Source of the DNA: Odontocerum albicorne
Lineage: Eukaryota > Arthropoda > Insecta > Trichoptera > Odontoceridae
Length of the DNA: 64,000 bases
Reading direction: 5' to 3'
NCBI GenBank assembly: GCA_949825065.1
Contig: OX463856.1
Location: 1,588,702 to 1,652,701 of the forward strand
Shown: positions 1,626 through 58,850 of the stretch, in pieces
Layout: each line of letters starts with the position of its first letter
How positions within the stretch are numbered: the stretch's first letter is position 1
Made by a program: the position numbers and the translations under genes
Notes under the pieces: generated by a model
The model's database searches: none
Told to the model about the DNA's origin: nothing
The model's input: the letters and a program-made list of their open reading frames with translations, nothing else

Positions 1626-2445
1626 ATCTTATTGAATCGATTCGGAACAATCAATTTACTACGAATAAAGTATGAGGAGATTAGCGTAGAGCGCTGAGGA
1701 TGTCTGGATCTCAGTGCATAAACCGTCTTGAAACAAATATGTTGGGCTATCTAAATGGCACCTTCCGAGTGGCTGATCCGATCGTTTGTAACAACAACAA
1801 TTTTTCTACGGAGAACTGAGAACATTAAAACTTTCAAGAGACTTAAAGTTGATGAAATGTTAAAAATAATCATGGAGTAGTGACATAGGTCACTTATGGG
1901 CACTGTACAAAAGAACGCTTGATTTATTGAAAAGGAAATAGTACTCTTTGAAATTATAACACATGTAACGCTGAATATGAAGAAAAGTGCATTGACATGG
2001 TATGGTTACGTAAAAAAATTGATGAAAGATTTTTGAACGAAATTGTAGAGATGGTACGAGAGCTTACAAGTGATAACTGAACTAAATTAAGAAAAGGAAC
2101 GAGTGATTGGTCATTAAGGGACGAGTGATAAATCAATGTCATGGATAGAGTAGACACTTAAGTATTTCAGAATATAAACAGTTACACATTTAACCATGTC
2201 CTTAGACGATTTTTATGTGTCGCTCAACTCCTTCAAGGGAAAAATGAAAAAAAATAGTATAAAATTGTAAATTGTTTCATTTTGATGTTAATAAATTATT
2301 ACTTTTATAATGTTATATAAATGACTGCGGCAGCGAAACAACGTAATTATTAGCCCATCAATCGTTCTTCAATTGCATGGTGCACATCTGACGAATCTCC
2401 TGCAAACAAAAATCTAACAATAACCCTGTCGTCGAACTAAACCTT
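1626..2445. other. No recognisable feature
   Basis: AT-rich sequence without a frame longer than about 70 codons and without a match to the repeat families seen elsewhere in the window. Confidence 0.5.
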
Positions 2446-2449
2446 TGAG

Positions 2450-2506
2450 GTTCATGGCCGTGCGGTAACGCACTGGACTTCCCTGCGGAAGGTCGTCGGT
2501 TCTCCG
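2450..2506 (+). mobile_element. tRNA-like SINE head (second type), fragment
   Basis: The stretch atggccgtgcggtaacgcac, followed by ggtcgtcggttc, resembles a tRNA-derived head with A-box- and B-box-like parts. It abuts the 3' end of the LINE reverse-transcriptase remnant at 2506 and is cut off there. It differs from the S1 head. Confidence 0.4.
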
Positions 2507-3500
2507 TCATTCTTCGCCTCCAACTCCTCCTGTCTTTCGCCTCGATCCTCCAATCCTGCGCCTGTAGCAGCCGGGTTGCGTCCCTCTCAACTTCATCCTC
2601 CCATCGCAATCTTGGCCTGCCCACTCTCCTTCTTCCACCCGGGTGTCCCTCCAGGATTCTTTTGGGTGCTCGCGATGACGGCATTCTCTGCACATGTCCG
2701 GCCCATCTTAATCTGCTCAGTCTGACATGTACAGATAGCCTGGGAGCTTTGTATATATTATATAGCTCATCGTTGTATCGTATTCGCCAGGTTTCGCCGT
2801 CATTCACGGGTCCCAGGATCCTACGTAGTACTCTTCTCTCGAAGGCATCTAGCAACTCTGCGGATTTGGCTGTCAGTGTCCATGCTTCGCATTCATATGC
2901 CACCACTTTTCTAATACTTGTTTTGTACAGGGTGACTTTGGTTTTTCTATGGACACTTCTGGACTTGAACACCGGCAGTAGGGAGAAGAATGTTCTGTTC
3001 CCTGTTGTGATTCTTCTCTTAATCTCAGCATGCTCCTCGTTTTCCTTCGTTATAGTTGAACCCAGGCAGGTGAACTCTTCTACTACCTCAAAGTCATATT
3101 CATCTTTGAATCTAATGTTACCTTGTGGACCATTGTCTATTCTCCTACTCTGTTTCATGATTATTATCTTATTTTCATTAATTTCCAGTCCAACTTCTTT
3201 GGTCGCTGTCTCCAAAGTTCCAAATACTTTTGAATGGCTGTCAGGGGTCTTCCTACTATGTTGAGGTCATCTGCATACCCAACTACCTGTCTGTTTTGGG
3301 AGCATATATTAGTGTTTGCATTATTATGGTGTGTCTTTCTGATGGCATACTCCAGACTCAGATTGAAAAGTGTAGGGGCCAGTCCGTTCCCCTGTTTGAG
3401 ACCTTGAGATACGATAAGCTCATCTATGAGCTCTCCTCCTATCTTAACTCTACACTTTGTGTTGGTAGAACTAGGAAGAAGAGATTCGTTCAAGAGTAAG
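2506..3500 (-). pseudogene. Non-LTR retrotransposon reverse transcriptase, 5'-truncated and frameshifted
   Basis: Two overlapping minus-strand frames form one broken reading frame. The upstream part (3493-3164) holds reverse-transcriptase blocks GLKQGNGLAPTLFN and VGYADDLN, with the catalytic YADD box. The downstream part (3215 to about 2510) holds the thumb and C-terminus: EFTCLGSTI, SVHRKTKVTLYKT, FERRVLRRILGP, RLRWAGHVQRM and GRPRLRWEDEVERD. A frameshift lies near 3164-3215. The endonuclease and the front of the RT are missing, as expected from 5' truncation. A second copy of the C-terminal part lies at 44630-45190 on the plus strand. The family is an insect LINE of the RTE/CR1-like broad group; I do not assign a clade. 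Confidence 0.88.
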
Positions 3501-9282: not shown

Positions 9283-9577
9283 CCTTGATAATTACCAATT
9301 ATATTTGAGGGAAACGTCGAACATAAAAAATAACATACAGACAGCCGTTGATAATGACCAATTATATTTGAGGGAAACGTCGAACATAAAAAATAACATA
9401 TAGACAGTCCTTGATAATGCCCAATTATATTTGAGGGAAACGTCGAACATAAAAAATAACATATAGACAGTCGTTGATAATGACCAATTATATTTGAGGG
9501 AAACGTCGAACATAAAAAATAACATATAGACAGTCCTTGATAATGACCAATGATATTTAAGGGAAACGCCGAACATA
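9283..9577. repeat. 63-bp tandem array, about 4.6 copies
   Basis: The unit contains ataatgaccaattatatttg, then agggaaacgtcgaacataaa and a caga.gt.c junction. Copies begin near 9283, 9346, 9409, 9472 and 9535 and differ by a few substitutions; 63 is divisible by three, so the minus strand stays open across the array. It follows directly on the RTE remnant. Confidence 0.95.
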
Positions 9578-9811
9578 AAAAAGTTAGTCGAGTAAATCTC
9601 GGCGTCTCCTACTCACGAAATATTCTGGGAGTTGCGACTTGAGATTTTCCGCGATAGGTGGTATTTCTGTTAAATGTACCAAAACGTGTTCCACTCTAGT
9701 TTCCACTTATGTCCCCTAAAATGTTTCCGGTTGTAGAAGAGTTACTTGATAATACGGTTTAATATTATAGTTACATAGCAGTAAGCCCACCCCACCAGAT
9801 GCAGATACTAT
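9578..9811. other. No recognisable feature
   Basis: No family or motif identified. Confidence 0.5.
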
Positions 9812-10061: not shown

Positions 10062-10067
10062 TATGTT

Positions 10068-10650
10068 TGTACCTGCCTGTATACCTACCTAAATGAATTG
10101 TCAAATTAACGAGTGAATTGTTAAAACACAAATAAATTAAATTAATTATTGTTGATCATAAACATACAGGGTCATTGACCGATCAAGTATTCATAGATAG
10201 CTACACGTCAAGAACGGCGACAATGTTTACTATTTTTATAGTACCCGCGATTTGTCCAGTCATCTCCAAATATAAATAATTAACCTACCGCCAATTTACG
10301 TGCCAGAGCGAGACGGAGCATGTAACGCGAACTGGTTCACCCATTTGTATAAAAGACCGGCGCTCCGATAAATAAAGATATATTCGTATTGTCATTCAGT
10401 CAACTGTCAAGACTTTGTTATTTATTTACCTGCTGTCCACTTATCGATTTATATCCGCATTCCTGAGTCCATATTTATTGACAACAAATCAAGATCATCA
10501 TGACTTATAGAAATAAGCAATTCGCTATATTGATGATTCTGTACGAGAAGTAACGCAGAATCAGCGAAAACGAAGATAACGATGTCGATATCAAGATCAT
10601 CAGCACGTCCTAATAGGACACGTGCTACACTGATCTACACCACCGTTACA
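10068..10650 (+). repeat. 5' LTR
   Basis: Starts TGTACC and ends TTACA. Contains TATAAAAG at 10348-10355 and AATAAA at 10371-10376, the order expected for promoter and polyadenylation signal in a compact LTR. Differences from the 3' LTR include gtcaaattaa/gtcaaaataa, gttgatc/gtttatc and four to five others. Confidence 0.92.
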
Positions 10651-10668
10651 TTGGTGACTCCGAAAGAA
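10651..10668 (+). promoter_or_regulatory. Primer-binding-site-like motif
   Basis: TTGGTGACTCCGAAAGAA immediately follows the 5' LTR, where minus-strand DNA synthesis would be primed by a tRNA. The tRNA species cannot be named without a tRNA set. Variants of the same motif recur at about 10708 and 10754 (cattgctgaacccgaacg, cattggtgaacccgaacg). Confidence 0.6.
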
Positions 10669-10917
10669 AACAGAACACGTACATCGACGAACTACACCAT
10701 CGTTACATTGCTGAACCCGAACGAAAATCGAACATCGCCACATTGGTCATCGCCACATTGGTGAACCCGAACGAAAATCGAACATCGCTAAATTGAGCCC
10801 GCACGAAAACTGAACCCGCACGAAAACTGAACCCGCACGAAAACCGAACCGCACGAAAACTGAACATCGCTACGAATACATACCTCGACTATATCGAATA
10901 TCGCCGACTCGACAGCA
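10655..10917 (+). repeat. Reiterated PBS-like leader
   Basis: The leader consists largely of imperfect repeats of gaacccg.acgaaaa.cgaac, at least seven times, with cattggtgaacccgaacg embedded in some. It looks like local slippage or repeated strand-transfer products involving the primer-binding region. A 60-codon frame crosses the LTR end but shows no similarity I recognise. Confidence 0.7.
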
Positions 10918-11166
10918 ATGTCAAAACAATTGCAACTCGACACCGGCATCAGCAGCAACGCGATGAGCATCATGAACAATTTCGTCAACGAGATTTTCGA
11001 ACGCACCGCCGCCAACGCCAACCGCCTCGCCCACTACAACAAGATGATCATCATCACCAGCAGAGAGATCCAGACAACCGTCAAGATTCTACTCCCCGGC
11101 GAACTGGCCAAGCACGCCGTCAGCAAGGACAGCAGAGCCGTCACTCAGATACAACACTACATCTGA
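10918..11166 (+). CDS. Histone H2B-like protein, N-terminally truncated
   Basis: The uninterrupted 82-codon frame starts with ATG and ends TGA. Residues 2-82 align without gaps to the H2B histone fold from the end of helix 1 to the C-terminus. Conserved blocks are [26 protein letters not shown] and [12 protein letters not shown]. The N-terminal tail and most of helix 1 (about 42 residues of a 123-125 residue H2B) are missing. At the C-terminus the lysine equivalent to human K120, the ubiquitination site, is glutamine (AVTQ), and acidic-patch E113 is lysine, while E105 (PGELAKH) is kept. Codons are G+C-rich at third positions, unlike the AT-rich surroundings but as in animal histone genes. It lies in the sense of the LTR element, 268 bases after the 5' LTR, so the LTR promoter could drive it. 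Upstream ATGs may limit translation. H2B identity is firm; function is unknown, and it may be a captured gene piece. Confidence 0.88.
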
Positions 11167-11355
11167 TTTGGACGAGCCCGACGCCAGCTCATGTGAGGTC
11201 AGTCCTGGCGATCAGCCACACGATTTACAGGATTGCCTCCATCGACGAACTACTGACCGACAAAATGCTGGAGCAGACAAGCATCGCTACAACATCGATA
11301 CAACCACGGACATCGATACAACCACGCTACAACCACGCTGCAGCAACGAGCACCG
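11167..11355 (+). other. Interior of LTR element, unassigned
   Basis: G+C-rich sequence continuing from the H2B-like ORF, ending in short aca/tcg-rich repeats (catcgatacaaccacg). Two overlapping frames of 75-107 codons run through it, but neither shows a motif that I recognise as gag or histone. Confidence 0.4.
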
Positions 11356-11356
11356 C

Positions 11357-11710
11357 AGACTCCACCATCATCAAGCATCTGCAGATCAACCGTCCACATC
11401 GGACGCCATCTGCAACTTGATCTCCGCCATCACCATCATCATCAAGCCACCGCATATCAACCTTCCACATCGGAAGCCATCTGCAACTTGATCTACATCA
11501 CTATCATCATCATCAAGCCACCGCAGATCAACCTTCCACATCGGAAGCCATCTGCAACTTGATCTACATCACTATCATCATCATCAAGCCACCGCAGATC
11601 AACCTTCCACATCGGAAGCCATCTGCAACTTGATCAACATCATCACCATCACCATCAAGCCACCGCAGATCAACCTTCCACATCGGATGCCATCTGCAGC
11701 TTGATCCACA
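11357..11710 (+). repeat. 71-bp tandem array inside the LTR element, 5 copies
   Basis: The block tccacatcgga.gccatctg recurs at 11393, 11464, 11535, 11606 and 11677, exactly 71 bases apart. Units end in catcatcatcaagccaccg. Since 71 is not a multiple of three, the reading frame shifts with each unit, so the array is probably not coding. Confidence 0.95.
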
Positions 11711-11789
11711 CAACCAATCATCGACGATCAGCGCAACAACCAACCAAGCACCGCAGACAATCCAAATTTAGTGAGAGACGACCAAGCCT

Positions 11790-11966
11790 ACCCCTGTTTC
11801 CGCATCACCCATCTGACCGACAGATCTGGGAAAAAACGCCACGCGCTGTTGTTATCCACGTACCTACTTCGACACGGGGAACGGACGACCAGCCCGACGT
11901 CAGATGCACTGGAACCTATCGTTCACGCAAGGCACGCGCCCTCTGCGTTCACTAGGAAGGGAGCTA
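11790..11966 (+). pseudogene. Possible gag-pol 3' tail and polypurine tract
   Basis: A G+C-rich stretch carries two overlapping frames, one ending in an arginine-rich run (TYRSRKARALCVH) just before the purine tract aggaagggagc at 11955-11964. Ty3/mag-like pol genes commonly end with basic residues close to the polypurine tract, so this may be the only pol remnant. The similarity is by position and composition only. Confidence 0.4.
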
Positions 11967-12549
11967 TGTACCTGCCTGTATACCTACCTAAATGAATTGT
12001 CAAAATAACGAGTGAATTGTTAAAACACAAATAAATTAAATTAATTATTGTTTATCATAAACATACAGGGTCATTGACCGATCAAGTATTCATAGATAGC
12101 TACACGTCAAGAACGGCTGCAATGTTTACTATTTTTATAGTATCCGCGATTTGTCCAGTCATCTCCAAATATAAATAATTAACCTACCGCCAATTTATGT
12201 GCCAGAGCGAGACGGAGCATGTAACACGAACTGGTTCACCCATTTGTATAAAAGACCGGCGCTCCGATAAATAAAGATATATTCGTATTGTCATTCAGTC
12301 AACTGTCAAGACTTTGTTATTTATTTACCTGCTGTCCACTTATCGATTTATATCCGCATTCCTGAGTCCATATTTATTGACAACAAATCAAGATCATCAT
12401 GACTTATAGAAATAAGCAATTCGCTATATTGATGATTCTGTACGAGAAGTAACGCAGAATCAGCGAAAACGAAGATAACGATGTCGATATCAAGATCATC
12501 AGCACGTCCTAATAGGACACGTGCTACACTGATCTACACCACCGTTACA
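11967..12549 (+). repeat. 3' LTR
   Basis: Same length as the 5' LTR and about 98.8 percent identical to it by eye. TATAAAAG and AATAAA are retained. Followed by tgtt, the target duplication. Confidence 0.92.
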
Positions 12550-12654
12550 TGTTCATAACGAAATAATTTCACCCACCAATTTGTACTTTAATGAAAGTGT
12601 AATACATTATTTAAACTAGTTTAGGATTAAGCTATTAAGATAGGCTAAATGAGC

Positions 12655-12934: not shown

Positions 12935-13460
12935 CAATTCACAAATACCACCTCAGATTAATTCAAACAAACAGATAAAGGTTCCTTGACAGCAACACAA
13001 TGTGTACATATACTCGTATACACTCGTATATACTCGTATAATAAACAATTCACAAATACCACCTCAGATTAATTCAAACAAACAGATAAAGGTTCCTTGA
13101 CAGCAACACAATGTGTACATATACTCGTATACACTCGTATATACTCGTATAATAAACAATTCACAAATACCACCTCAGATTAATTCAAACAAACAGATAA
13201 AGGTTCCTTGACAGCAACACAATGTGTACATATACTCGTATATACTCGTATAATAAACAATTCACAAATACCACCTCAGATTAATTCAAACAAACAGATA
13301 AAGGTTCCTTGACAGCAACACAATGTGTACATATACTCGTATATACTCGTATAATAAACAATTCACAAATACCACCTCAGATTAATTCAAACAAACAGAT
13401 AAAGGTTCCTTGACAGCAACACAATGTGTACATATACTCGTATATACTCGTATAATAAAC
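12935..13460. repeat. Tandem array, 101/111-bp unit, 5 copies
   Basis: caattcacaaataccacctc recurs at 12935, 13046, 13157, 13258 and 13359. The first two units have an extra 10 bases (an additional actcgtatac block), the later three do not. Part of the unit (gacagcaacacaatgtgtac) resembles the end of family C, so the array seems to have grown from a family C copy. Confidence 0.95.
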
Positions 13461-15399: not shown

Positions 15400-15764
15400 G
15401 AGATATGGGTGGCGTGTGCAGGTTTAGGAACTACTTGAAGACACTTTTTTTGGAGCTGTTATCAAAATGTATGATTATGTATAAAAATTACACCCATACA
15501 TTACACTTCAAGTTCACCTGAAGTTGAATGTGTTACTAAAACATATCTGAAGATTTACTAAAGTTTCTTTGAAGTTCGTTTTCTCTTCGAAATCTTTCTG
15601 CGGTTTTTGGCTAAATATGTTATTCTATATTCCCCGCATCTGCGTTTCTAAACGTTGGGAATTTCCAAATTTAATAGCCGCAGCCACCACTTTCCTATCG
15701 TTACAATCAATTTGGCTTTTTTGTATTGTTTTTAATCTGTCAAAAATAGTGTGTTCGAAATTTA
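15400..15764 (+). mobile_element. LINE 3' end (family G)
   Basis: A short frame resembling the tail of a LINE ORF2 (GGVCRFRNYLKTLFLELL) is followed by a 3'-UTR-like segment. That segment has gttgaatgtgttactaaaac, tctgcggtttt, aatagccgcagccaccac and aatctgtcaaaaatagtgtg. Related segments are at 25640-25773/26288-26440, 30715-30835 and 33640-34050. It ends where the 33-bp array begins. Confidence 0.6.
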
Positions 15765-17412
15765 AGATAGAGCGAGAGTCTGCTCTGCTCAGTATCAAGA
15801 TGGAGCGAGAGTCTTCTCTGCTCTATATCAAGATGGAGCGAGAGTCTGCTCTGCTCTATATCAAGATGGAGCGAGAGTCTGCTCTGCTCTATATCAAGAT
15901 GGAGCGAGAGTCTGCTCTGCTCTATATCAAGATGGAGCGAGAGTCTTCTCTGCTTTATATCAAGATGGAGCGAGAGTCTTCTCTGCTCTATATCAAGATG
16001 GAGCGAGAGTCTGCTCTGCTCTATATCAAGATGGAGCGAGAGTCTTCTCTGCTCTATATCAAGATGGAGCGAGAGTCTGCTCTGCTCTATATCAAGATGG
16101 AGCGAGAGTCTTCTCTGCTCTATATCAAGATGGAGCGAGAGTCTGCTCTGCTCTATATCAAGATGGAGCGAGAGTCTGCTCTGCTCTATATCAAGATGGA
16201 GCGAGAGTCTGCTCTGCTCTATATCAAGATGGAGCGAGAGTCTGCTATGCTCTATATCAAGATGGAGCGAGAGTCTTCTCTGCTTTATATCAAGATGGAG
16301 CGAGAGTCTTCTCTGCTCTATATCAAGATGGAGCGAGAGTCTGCTCTGCTCTATATCAAGATGGAGCGAGAGTCTTCTCTGCTTTATATCAAGATGGAGC
16401 GAGAGTCTTCTCTGCTCTATATCAAGATGGAGCGAGAGTCTGCTCTGCTCTATATCAAGATGGAGCGAGAGTCTTCTCTGCTCTATATCAAGATGGAGCG
16501 AGAGTCTGCTCTGCTCTATATCAAGATGGAGCGAGAGTCTGCTCTGCTCTATATCAAGATGGAGCGAGAGTCTGCTATGCTCTATATCAAGATGGAGCGA
16601 GAGTCTGCTATGCTCTATATCAAGATGGAGCGAGAGTCTTCTCTGCTCTATATCAAGATGGAGCGAGAGTCTGCTCTGCTCTATATCAAGATGGAGCGAG
16701 AGTCTTCTCTGCTCTATATCAAGATGGAGCGAGAGTCTGCTCTGCTCTATATCAAGATGGAGCGAGAGTCTTCTCTGCTCTATATCAAGATGGAGCGAGA
16801 GTCTGCTCTGCTCTATATCAAGATGGAGCGAGAGTCTGCTCTGCTCTATATCAAGATGGAGCGAGAGTCTGCTCTGCTCTATATCAAGATGGAGCGAGAG
16901 TCTGCTCTGCTCTATATCAAGATGGAGCGAGAGTCTGCTCTGCTCTATATCAAGATGGAGCGAGAGTCTGCTCTGCTCTATATCAAGATGGAGCGAGAGT
17001 CTGCTCTGCTCTATATCAAGATGGAGCGAGAGTCTGCTATGCTCTATATCAAGATGGAGCGAGAGTCTGCTATGCTCTATATCAAGATGGAGCGAGAGTT
17101 TGCTCTGCTTTATATCAAGATGGAGCGAGATTTTGTTCTGCTCATTATCAAGATGGAACGAGAGTCTGCTCTGCTTTATATCAAGATGGAGCGAGAGTCT
17201 GCTCTGCTCTATTTCAAGATGGAATGAGAGTTTGCTCTGCTCTAGAACAAGATGGAATGAGAGTCTGCTCTGCTTTATATCAAGATACACCGAGAGTTTG
17301 CTCTGCTCTATGTCAAGATGGACCGAGAGTCTGCTCTGCTTTATGTCAAGATGGAGCGAGCGTCTGCTCTGCTCTATGTCAAGATGGAGCGAGAGTCTTC
17401 TGTGTTCTATAT
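15765..17412. repeat. 33-bp tandem array, about 50 copies, open on both strands
   Basis: The unit agatggagcgagagtctgct plus ctgctctatatca (33 bp) is repeated with very little variation, mainly tct/gct and ctc/ttt/atg switches. In the plus frame it reads KMERESALLYI, and a frame of 552 codons runs from 15569 to 17227. The complement also stays open for 516 codons. The last units are more diverged and lose the frame. The 65 upstream codons come from a LINE 3' end, not from a recognisable gene, so the frame is probably a by-product of a period divisible by three. The 11-residue unit is compatible with a hendecad coiled coil if it were translated. Confidence 0.95.
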
Positions 17413-40537: not shown

Positions 40538-41435
40538 TTGGGTTGATGCAAAAGTTATGACCGTTTTTTATGATCCCAGGTAAAAAAAAACCCAGGTAAG
40601 AAATTATGAATAGTATCTTCTTTTAAATGATTTCATTGTATAAAGGATGCTTTCCCTCTACTTTCTATTTAGTTTTGGCCTGGCCAAAGTACAGTGAAGA
40701 GCCCTTGTATTTTTTCAAAATGTCGGTCGATAAAGTTCATTTACGTCATTGTTTACTTTATGAATTCCGTAAAGACAATACCGCGAGTGTGGCAACCAAA
40801 AACATTTGCGAAGTGTATGGAGCAGATGTCATCAAAGTTCGACAGGTACGAAGATGGTTTACAAAATTCCGATCTGGGGATTTTTCACTAATTGTTTTTC
40901 ACAAATTTTTCACAAATTTTTCACTTTTGTGTATTTTGAACTCTTGGAACGCAATCAGACAATTACAGCAGAACGATATTGTCAGCAATTATCCAAATTG
41001 AACATCGCCCTTCAAAAGGATAGACCAGAATTGGTAAACAGAAAAGGGGTAGTGTTTCATCACGACAACGCGCGACCACATGTGGCTATGATGACCCAAC
41101 ACAAGCTAATTGAGTTGAAATGGGATGTTATCAAGCATCCACCGTATTCTCCAGATCTTGCTCCTTCCAATTTTTATTTATTCCGATCACTGCAAATTTT
41201 TTTGAATGATAAAAAAGTTGATACAATAGAGCAGGTAAAAACATCCCTTACTACATTTTTCGCTTCAAAATCCACGGAATTTTACACTAAGGTATTGATA
41301 AGTTGATAGAAAGATGGGACAAGGTTATAAGAACTGATGGAAATTATATAATTGATTAAATAAATAATACAAATCTAAAAAAAGTATGTTTAATTGTATA
41401 TGTAAAAAACGGTTATAGCTTTTGCATCAACCCAA
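40538..41435 (+). mobile_element. mariner element with TIRs and TA duplication, internally deleted
   Basis: Left end ttgggttgatgcaaaagtta; complement of right end ttgggttgatgcaaaagcta; the match runs on into accgttttt. TA lies at 40536-40537 and 41436-41437. Length is 898 bp against about 1.3 kb for an intact mariner. Confidence 0.95.
40720..41306 (+). pseudogene. mariner transposase, deleted and catalytically dead
   Basis: The N-terminus reads MSVDKVHLRHCLLYEFRKD up to WFTKFRSGDFSL. A deletion of roughly 350 bases near 40880-40925 (bounded by short tttttcacaaa repeats) removes the first catalytic aspartate. The frame then continues with ERNQTITAERYCQQL, VFHHDNARPHVA (second aspartate) and YSPDLAPSNFYLFRSL. 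The third catalytic position is asparagine where mariners have aspartate. The C-terminus is truncated by a frameshift near 41300. It cannot be active. Confidence 0.93.
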
Positions 41436-57060: not shown

Positions 57061-57224
57061 TACTTTAAAAATGGTTTAATTACTAACAAAGTTACAACTC
57101 ACTATTAAGTACACATAAGAAAAAAACATTTCGGTTTGATTCCCAACATCCACGCTTTTATGGGGGACAAAATATGCCCTCCCAGTTCGAATTCAGCAAA
57201 ACTATCATTAGACGCCACTAGGTC

Positions 57225-58850
57225 GAGTAGATAGTTGATCCGAAGATGTACCGATGTAAGGCTGAATGGAGATTCGAATAGCTAGTTGGTCCGAAGATGT
57301 ACCGATATAAGGCTGAATGGAGATTGGAGTAGCTAGTTGGTCCGAAGATGTACCGATCTAAGGCTGAATGGAGATTCGAATATCTAGTTGGTCCGAAGAT
57401 GTACCGATGTAAGGCTGAATGGAAATTCGAATAGCTAGTTGGTCCGAAGATGTACCGATATAAGGCTGAATGGAGATTCGAATAACTAGTTGGTCCGAAG
57501 ATGTACCGATGTAAGGCTGAATGGAGATTCGAGTATCTAGTTGGTCCGGAGATGTACCGATGTAAGGCTGAATGGAGATTCGAATAGCTAGTTGGTCCGA
57601 AGATGTACCGATGTAAGGCTGAATGGAGATTCGAGTATCTAGTTGGTCCGAAAATGTACCAATGTAAAGCTGAACGGAGATTCGAATAGCTAGTTGGTCC
57701 GAAGATGTACCGATGTAAGGCTGAATGGAGATTCGAGTATCTAGTTGGTCCGGAGATGTACCGATGTAAGGCTGAATGGAGATTCGAATAGCTAGTTGGT
57801 CCGAAGATGTACCGATGTAAGGATGAATGGAGATTCGAGTATCTAGTTGGTCCGAAGATGTACCGATGTAAGGCTGAATGGAGATTCGAGTATCTAGTTG
57901 GTCTGAAGATGTACCGATATAAGGCTGAATGGAGATTCGAGTATCTAGTTGGTCCGAAGATGTACCGATGTAAGGCTGAATGGAGATTCAAATATCTAAT
58001 TGGTCCGAAGATGTACCGATGTAAGGCTGAATGGAAATTCAAATATCTAATTGGTCCGAAGATGTACCGATGTAAGGCTGAATGGAAATTCGAGTATCTA
58101 GTTGGTCCGAAGATGTACCGATGTAAGGCTGAATGGAGATTCGAGTATCTAGTTGGTCCGAAGATGTACCGATGTAAGGCTGAATGGAGATTCGAGTATC
58201 TAGTTGGTCCGAAGATGTACCGATATAAGGCTGAATGGAGATTCGAGTATCTAGTTGGTTCGAAGATATACCGATGTAAGGCTGAATGGAAATTCGAATA
58301 GCTAGTTGGTCCGAAGATGTACCAATGTAAGGCTGAATGGAGATTCGAATAGCTAGTTGGTCCGAAGATGTACCGATGTAAGGCTGAATGGAGATTCGAG
58401 TATCTAGTTGGTCCGAAAATGTACCAATGTAAGGCTGAACGGAGATTCGAATAGCTAGTTGGTCCGAAGATGTACCGATGTAAGGCTGAATGGAGATTCG
58501 AGTATCTAGTTGGTCCGGAGATGTACCGATGTAAGGCTGAATGGAGATTCGAATAGCTAGTTGGTCCGAAGATGTACCGATGTAAGGCTGAATGGAGATT
58601 CGAGTATCTAGTTGGTCCGAAGATGTACCAATGTAAGGCTGAACGGAGATTCGAATAGCTAGTTGGTCCGAAGATGTACCGATATAAGGCTGACTGGAGA
58701 TTCGAGTATCTATTTGGTCGGAAGATGTACCGATGTAAGGCTGAATGGAAATTCGAATAGCTAGTTGGTCCGAAGATGTACCGATGTAAGGCTGAATGGA
58801 GATTCGAGTAGCTAGTTGGTCCGAAGATGTACCAATGTAAGGCTGAACGT
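57225..58850. repeat. 51-bp satellite array, about 32 copies, with higher-order structure
   Basis: The unit gatgtaccgatgtaaggctg, then aatggagattcga.ta.ctagttggtccgaa (51 bp), is repeated about 32 times. The minus strand is open for 573 codons with a 17-residue unit of the form HRYIFGPTSYSNLHSAL. A 164-codon plus frame is also open. Variants (rare gaaaatgtaccaatgtaa, aacggagattc, ggtccggagat) recur in the same order near 57640-57830 and 58405-58600, about 766 bases (15 units) apart. So a block of about 15 units has been duplicated. No gene-like flanks were found. Confidence 0.95.

Follow-up and report, generated by a model that had tools for sequence, protein, structure and literature searches.

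In a 64,000-nucleotide stretch of the Odontocerum albicorne genome (the window), an LTR retrotransposon of 2,482 bp (10068 to 12549; internal region of 1,316 bp without gag-pol frames) was found to contain a reading frame resembling the core histone H2B. The locus raises the question of whether a mobile element has captured a core histone and whether the captured frame is kept for its product or is only carried along. The features of the element were as follows, with positions counted along the window.

10064 to 10067, no strand: left target site duplication, TGTT
10068 to 10650, forward strand: 5' LTR, 583 bp, TGT...ACA
10348 to 10355, forward strand: candidate promoter TATAAAAG inside the LTR (consensus match only)
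10371 and 10396 to 10401, forward strand: AATAAA and TCAGTC, respectively, both 3' of TATAAAAG (consensus matches only)
10652 to 10661, forward strand: primer binding site (PBS)-like TGGTGACTCC, 1 base past the 5' LTR
10698 to 10865, forward strand: leader with tandem repeats, partly of PBS-like units
10886 to 10929, forward strand: end of the leader with a gag-like start codon and the codons for MSKQ; 41 of 44 bases identical to the autonomous relative L083
10918 to 11166, forward strand: 82-codon frame MSKQ...AVTQIQHYI, consisting of gag-like start, H2B and out-of-frame late gag tail
10930 to 11145, forward strand: H2B-derived part, host codons ~47/48 to ~119 (loop 1, helix alpha2 onward)
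11146 to 11280, forward strand: late gag, joined out of frame, PAHVRSVLAISHTIYRIASIDELL in its native frame (by-eye comparison)
11362 to 11710, forward strand: 71-bp tandem array, copy number varying among elements
11954 to 11966, forward strand: polypurine tract AGGAAGGGAGCTA, abutting the 3' LTR
11967 to 12549, forward strand: 3' LTR, 583 bp
12550 to 12553, no strand: right target site duplication, TGTT

The hallmarks of an LTR retrotransposon (direct LTRs with TG...CA ends, PBS, polypurine tract and a target site duplication of fixed length) were present in the LTR type of the window. An initial annotation, made from the letters of the window, had described the insertion as complete and recent. 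The first part was confirmed by the LTRs, PBS-like site, polypurine tract and target duplication; as to the second, the window copy is less recent than the copy at C17:2764762, whose two LTRs are identical, whereas those of the window copy show 7 mismatches over 583 bp (98.8% identity; a difference of 1.2% versus 0). The annotation had also noted a contrast in base composition, and this was real, with a GC content of 0.526 at 11001 to 12000 compared with 0.285 to 0.471 in the remaining 63 kilobases. The PBS-like site was TGGTGACCCC in the 8 further copies aligned, as opposed to TGGTGACTCC in the window copy. No Rfam family was detected at the gathering threshold between 10000 and 12700, and none of seven further long frames in the window element and the related copy L059 contained a Pfam domain at E values up to 1. 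At 2,482 bp the element exceeds the size limit given for TRIMs in one description (<1,000 bp; PMC3532108) and is hence termed TRIM-like.

Tandem arrays of 63 bp (9283 to 9582) and ∼101 to 111 bp (12935 to 13454) flank the element on the left and right, respectively. Elsewhere in the window, two long arrays were observed at 15764 to 17412 (50 copies of 33 bp) and 57223 to 58847 (32 copies of 51 bp); since both units are multiples of three, frames of more than 500 codons stay open across them. A mariner-like transposase fragment (40773 to 41306, from the frame list) and a fragment resembling the C-terminal part of a non-LTR retrotransposon protein (2358 to 3266) were recognized by eye.

The 82-codon frame matched the Pfam Histone family with an E value of 3.1e-8, over the cut-off, and PDB H2B chains aligned to frame residues 3 to 77 without gaps, the chains consisting of a single H2B doing so at E values of ∼1e-30. 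The gapless alignment to H2B that had been proposed for this frame was thereby borne out. Sequence from loop 1 through helix alphaC was present, and homology began at codon 47, such that the N-terminal tail and helix alpha1 are absent from the product. When compared with a host H2B gene (L061) over 219 bases, from codon 47 (CAG) to approximately codon 119, the element sequence differed at 4 positions in L059, 6 in L060 and 32 in the window copy, with the changes from host to window copy distributed as 7, 11 and 14 over the three codon positions. The host H2B gene that was read is intronless, in one frame, and its sequence therefore cannot distinguish an mRNA from a DNA source. In two Artemia franciscana gene models annotated as "histone H2B-like" (P0001 and P0011), the H2B part was observed to start at VLKQVHP, near the same codon. 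These models were the best protein matches, but a brine shrimp host was rejected on mitochondrial COI, which was 95% identical to Psilotreta and 91% to Marilia, both genera of Odontoceridae.

Searches of the genome covered 1,287,057,991 bases. With the H2B part and its flanks as the query, the best 40 of 588 candidates all matched at 94 to 100% identity, and with the window 5' LTR the best 40 of 2,429 candidates were all 98 to 100% identical. An LTR was present on both sides in 27 of the 30 loci fetched from the H2B query, the window included, and on one side in L038, L046 and L057. Identity to the window 5' LTR ranged from 75 to 98.5% among the fetched loci outside the window, indicating several LTR subfamilies. 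When a moth H2B protein was used instead, the best 150 of 409 candidates comprised 9 full-length H2B rows, 3 divergent near-full-length frames and 138 truncated frames. The truncated frames started at H2B residues 32 to 46 and 129 had no internal stop, counts that apply to best-scoring matches biased to intact copies, with LTRs established at the fetched loci only. Among the full-length rows, four lay within 58 kb on C17 and one, on C20, had an extra stop. The divergent frames (C10:35832674, C10:35833948 and C10:11691929), with 56% identity to the moth query, are possibly H2B variants.

Six full copies had distinct flanks. Five of these were bordered by perfect target site duplications (TGTT, ATCC, GGTA, AATA and ACTG) and the sixth, on C12, by GTTA/GTCA, while their paired LTRs differed at 7, 0, 4, 2, 2 and 2 of 583 positions. 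Perfect 4-bp duplications were also found at 9/9 solo LTRs, a tenth (L016) having been left out for sharing its flanks with the C12 copy. The H2B-carrying element is a large TRIM-like family in O. albicorne and not a single copy. A lone copy or a chimera of the assembly was ruled out by the additional insertions elsewhere in the genome. The related idea that scattered host H2B genes had been taken for an element, or that the assembly had joined the two, could draw on a 153-kb contig, C14, on which L013, L014 and L015 have the left flank of the insertion at C12:45.47 Mb, one of them the right flank as well, and two of the three are cut within the 3' LTR. Some copies are accordingly segmental or assembly duplicates, and the three were counted together with the C12 copy. 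This idea retains practically no probability against the independent flanks, target duplications, LTR pairs and distinct LTR subfamilies, and against the location of the full-length host genes elsewhere, including the C17 cluster.

A second, older type of copy was recovered in the moth-query set, of which L059 and L060 were read with long flanks. L059 had direct repeats of 394 bp, 99.2% identical, on both sides of an element of ∼1.5 kb, although TG...CA ends were not clear; in L060 the 3' LTR was present and the 5' LTR was absent from the stretch read. In L060, 113 of the 126 bases after H2B corresponded to the late gag of an autonomous relative, entered out of frame, which accounts for the QIQHYI end of the frame. 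This alignment was made at base level for L060, and the window copy was placed beside the relative by eye. The H2B piece thus sits between the leader and an out-of-frame late gag. The initial annotation had the histone standing in place of gag-pol; the element is indeed non-autonomous, but gag is not wholly absent, given the gag-like start before H2B and the late gag after it.

With the L060 sequence downstream of H2B as the query, 21 of the best 40 of 663 candidates adjoined an H2B row and 16 a gag-remnant row; one of the remaining places had a truncated H2B and two had neither (from a manual comparison of coordinates). We fetched six places at which no H2B was listed. L076 proved to be a truncated H2B copy, and L077 to L081, with the leader and downstream sequence unchanged, contained between them an early gag piece, starting from its AUG and open in 4/5. 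These five make up a sister subfamily of TRIMs in which the early gag frame is truncated. The gag remnant in turn matched all of the best 150 of 181 candidates, the first 20 being TRIM-like frames of 70 to 75 aa, with 90 of the 150 in frames of at least 200 aa, 31 in 306 aa and four in 1,335 aa. A 750-base piece downstream of one such relative contained RT_RNaseH_2 (E 4.2e-30) and RT_RNaseH domains, and the gag start resembled DUF7041 with a score below the cut-off. The leader with gag start and the late gag are common to these relatives, and the family appears to derive from a gag-bearing LTR element of Ty3/Gypsy type, a superfamily assignment inferred from the 750 bases of pol read, in which integrase was not among the domains. 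The autonomous-looking relatives were located via the gag query rather than the LTR; among the best 40 of 2,429, 3,277 and 2,358 candidates for three LTR queries, no pair at gag-pol spacing was found that would indicate an autonomous partner sharing the LTR.

Because the sisters have early gag in the same place and gag-pol relatives exist, the border of H2B is a recombination junction, which probably came from a template switch. The longest word that the gag portion of L081 has in common with the host H2B gene was AAGCCGTCACC, 11 bases long, and it coincided precisely with the 3' junction. At this position AAGCCGCCACC is found in the autonomous copy read and AAGCCGTCACC in sister L081, so either the sister form or the H2B form may be older. 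Read by eye, the sequences allow two orders, each requiring one point change: H2B may have taken the place of early gag, at AAGCCGTCACC, in a TRIM with deleted gag, or the gag-TRIM may be a later recombinant.

The start codon differed between the groups of copies. In L059, the first AUG 3' of the LTR TATA box lies in the H2B frame and would yield 67 residues, beginning with MSIMN. Of the 14 older-type copies, 13 had no in-frame AUG in the 53 to 75 bases of leader and one (L065) had two, while an out-of-frame AUG at -26 was present in 5/14; both observations argue against simple translation in these copies. In the window group, an in-frame gag-like AUG was found upstream of H2B in 25/25 rows. 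The 44-base start context of the window was identical to the autonomous gag start at 41 positions, with MSKQ in both, and it is probable that the window lineage gained a gag start in frame with H2B through a second exchange. In the window copy, the putative start site is separated from the AUG of H2B by three other AUGs, making translation uncertain.

The integrity of the frame was then compared across copies. The 52 element rows were reduced to 47 loci after repeat readings (L029 and L054) and the three C14 copies were dropped. A stop was present in 4/47 loci (L020, L045, L051 and L074), and one extra in-frame codon was present in each of L038 and L055. A 48th locus, on C9 and too short for the 52-row set, had a stop and a 108-base deletion. 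Among these copies, which are the best-scoring ones, the H2B frame was open in 43/48 distinct loci. Other copies with the H2B piece, the absence of which would have undone the initial annotation, were found; neither a frame broken in all of them nor a chimera was.

Evolutionary rates were estimated by codon likelihood on a grid, using 39 distinct element sequences from the 47 loci, with identical sequences collapsed and L045 dropped for its stop. The dN/dS ratio (omega) between copies, proposed earlier as a check, was 0.40 (2dlnL 23.3, P 1.4e-6). By group, omega was 0.40 in the derived clade (n = 34, P 5.5e-5), 0.30 in the older type (n = 14, P 2.7e-5) and 0.60 in the window group (n = 25, P 0.04). 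As controls, frame +2 gave an omega of 2.2, and frame +1 had a stop in every sequence. Pairwise omega against one host H2B gene ranged from 0 (L059) to 1.5, exceeding 1 for L060, L064, L070 and L072. Since histone codons are C-rich, neutral change was simulated from the host sequence with flank-derived rates, on a tree and branch lengths taken from the same H2B data and scaled by 1.19. The ratio of 0-fold to synonymous steps was 0.65, compared with a neutral value of 1.05 (sd 0.17), and was as low in 1 of 300 simulations. Across 33 copies, 0-fold sites changed at 0.70 times the flank rate (55/144 versus 96/175 steps per site, P 0.03). The H2B frame thus shows moderate purifying selection, and the effect size is modest.

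An excess of synonymous differences might also be borrowed, if the H2B of the element had been refreshed or recaptured from host genes or alleles that differ mainly synonymously. Over 73 codons, L059 is separated from the host gene by 4 synonymous and 0 nonsynonymous changes, and L059 and L063 are near the host genes in the tree, as such exchange would predict. We consider it improbable, as a single type of tail follows H2B in all 52 element rows (AVTQ in 51, a stop there in one) and the omega of the derived clade persists far from the host sequence.

At the protein level, 37 distinct translations were compared. The K120 position was Q in 36 and a stop in 1, the R86 position M in 27, the K57 position N in 30 and the E113 position K in 34. 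In our numbering, we take these to be the ubiquitin site, the minor-groove arginine, a DNA contact and an acidic patch residue, respectively. The initial annotation had suggested that the product could pair with H2A or interfere with nucleosomes, which it would have to do lacking helix alpha1 and the N-tail and with altered residues at the minor-groove arginine and K120 positions. An AlphaFold model of the product was poor (mean pLDDT 63.4) and was left out of the interpretation.

The initial annotation had considered a passive passenger the simpler reading: one capture that spread by hitchhiking, its frame still open because histone codons yield few stops and the copies are young. That reading has been weakened by the omega of 0.40 and the single neutral simulation in 300, yet it remains a live alternative that we regard as possible without favoring it. 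The constraint is moderate only, and 51/300 neutral simulations ended with no more than one stop-bearing copy, though the mean was 15.7. H2B-free siblings with a gag remnant have spread too, 5/48 distinct loci are broken, in most older copies no in-frame AUG precedes H2B, and the product has shed residues that, in the roles assumed above, are used in the nucleosome. Against hitchhiking stand the in-frame omega of 0.40 beside an out-of-frame value above 1, and the start codon gained by the window lineage, which fell in frame, itself a 1 in 3 chance.

The reading that we judge somewhat probable is a non-autonomous TRIM-like family with a captured H2B whose frame is kept coding and whose product is mildly helpful to the element. 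In the ancestor, host H2B codons 47 to ∼119 would have come to occupy the place of early gag, from leader to late gag, by a template switch while element RNA, packaged together with H2B mRNA, was being reverse-transcribed. The family would have been moved in trans by gag-pol relatives, candidates for which were found in the genome. The captured frame would then have remained coding through moderate purifying selection, with the in-frame gag-like start added afterward in the window lineage. A short H2B-like protein translated from element RNA could benefit the element mildly by binding H2A, by binding the nucleic acid of the element, or by tying its RNA or cDNA to chromatin. A more specific version, which we put forward tentatively and consider unlikely, is that the tail-less H2B, having taken over the position of early gag, forms pairs with H2A or keeps H2A-H2B chaperones occupied and so loosens silencing or tethers element RNA or cDNA to chromatin. 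Selection would then keep the dimer core and shed the DNA-contact, acidic-patch and ubiquitin-site residues.

Transduction of host genes by LTR elements is established from Bs1 of maize and the acute transforming retroviruses, in which host coding sequence displaces part of gag or pol. The caddisfly element differs from these in that it carries a core histone and, once fused, has multiplied into a diverse family. Short LTR elements lacking gag-pol proteins are described in animals, including a bivalve TRIM (PMC6934838) and PbTRIM of a harvester ant, for which the published account gives a length of 480 to 781 bp, a PBS, polypurine tract, 4-bp target duplications, solo LTRs, a noncoding internal domain and supposed movement in trans (PMC3532108). 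The caddisfly elements are likewise small and without gag-pol proteins but, at ∼1.5 kb (L059) and 2.5 kb (window), include an H2B frame. Cassandra (PMC10853983) and Helenus and Ajax (PMC10886601) are reported as TRIMs with a piece of host 5S rRNA or tRNA, animal Helenus making 4-bp duplications (PMC10886601). In those elements a small RNA gene sequence with a polymerase III promoter lies in the LTR, whereas in the caddisfly family a protein-coding histone piece is internal and replaces early gag. A core histone in a viral genome is described for the Cotesia bracovirus, whose CpBV-H4 (PMC5423620) keeps its N-terminal tail and acts in the parasitized host; the caddisfly element has a truncated, tail-less H2B in a genomic LTR element. 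A captured core histone in an LTR element was not found in a literature search with little coverage of subscription journals, and the word histone is absent from the main text of the O. albicorne genome paper (PMC11112305).

These findings warn annotators that, in such genomes, a gene model resembling H2B may be the frame of a transposon. A single genome here displays how a retrotransposon can pick up a core histone, since it contains H2B-free sisters, the junctions, relatives with gag-pol and copies that form a graded series. Should the protein be produced, the family would reveal, as a natural experiment, which portions of H2B a selfish element retains, and its product may be an element-borne chromatin factor.
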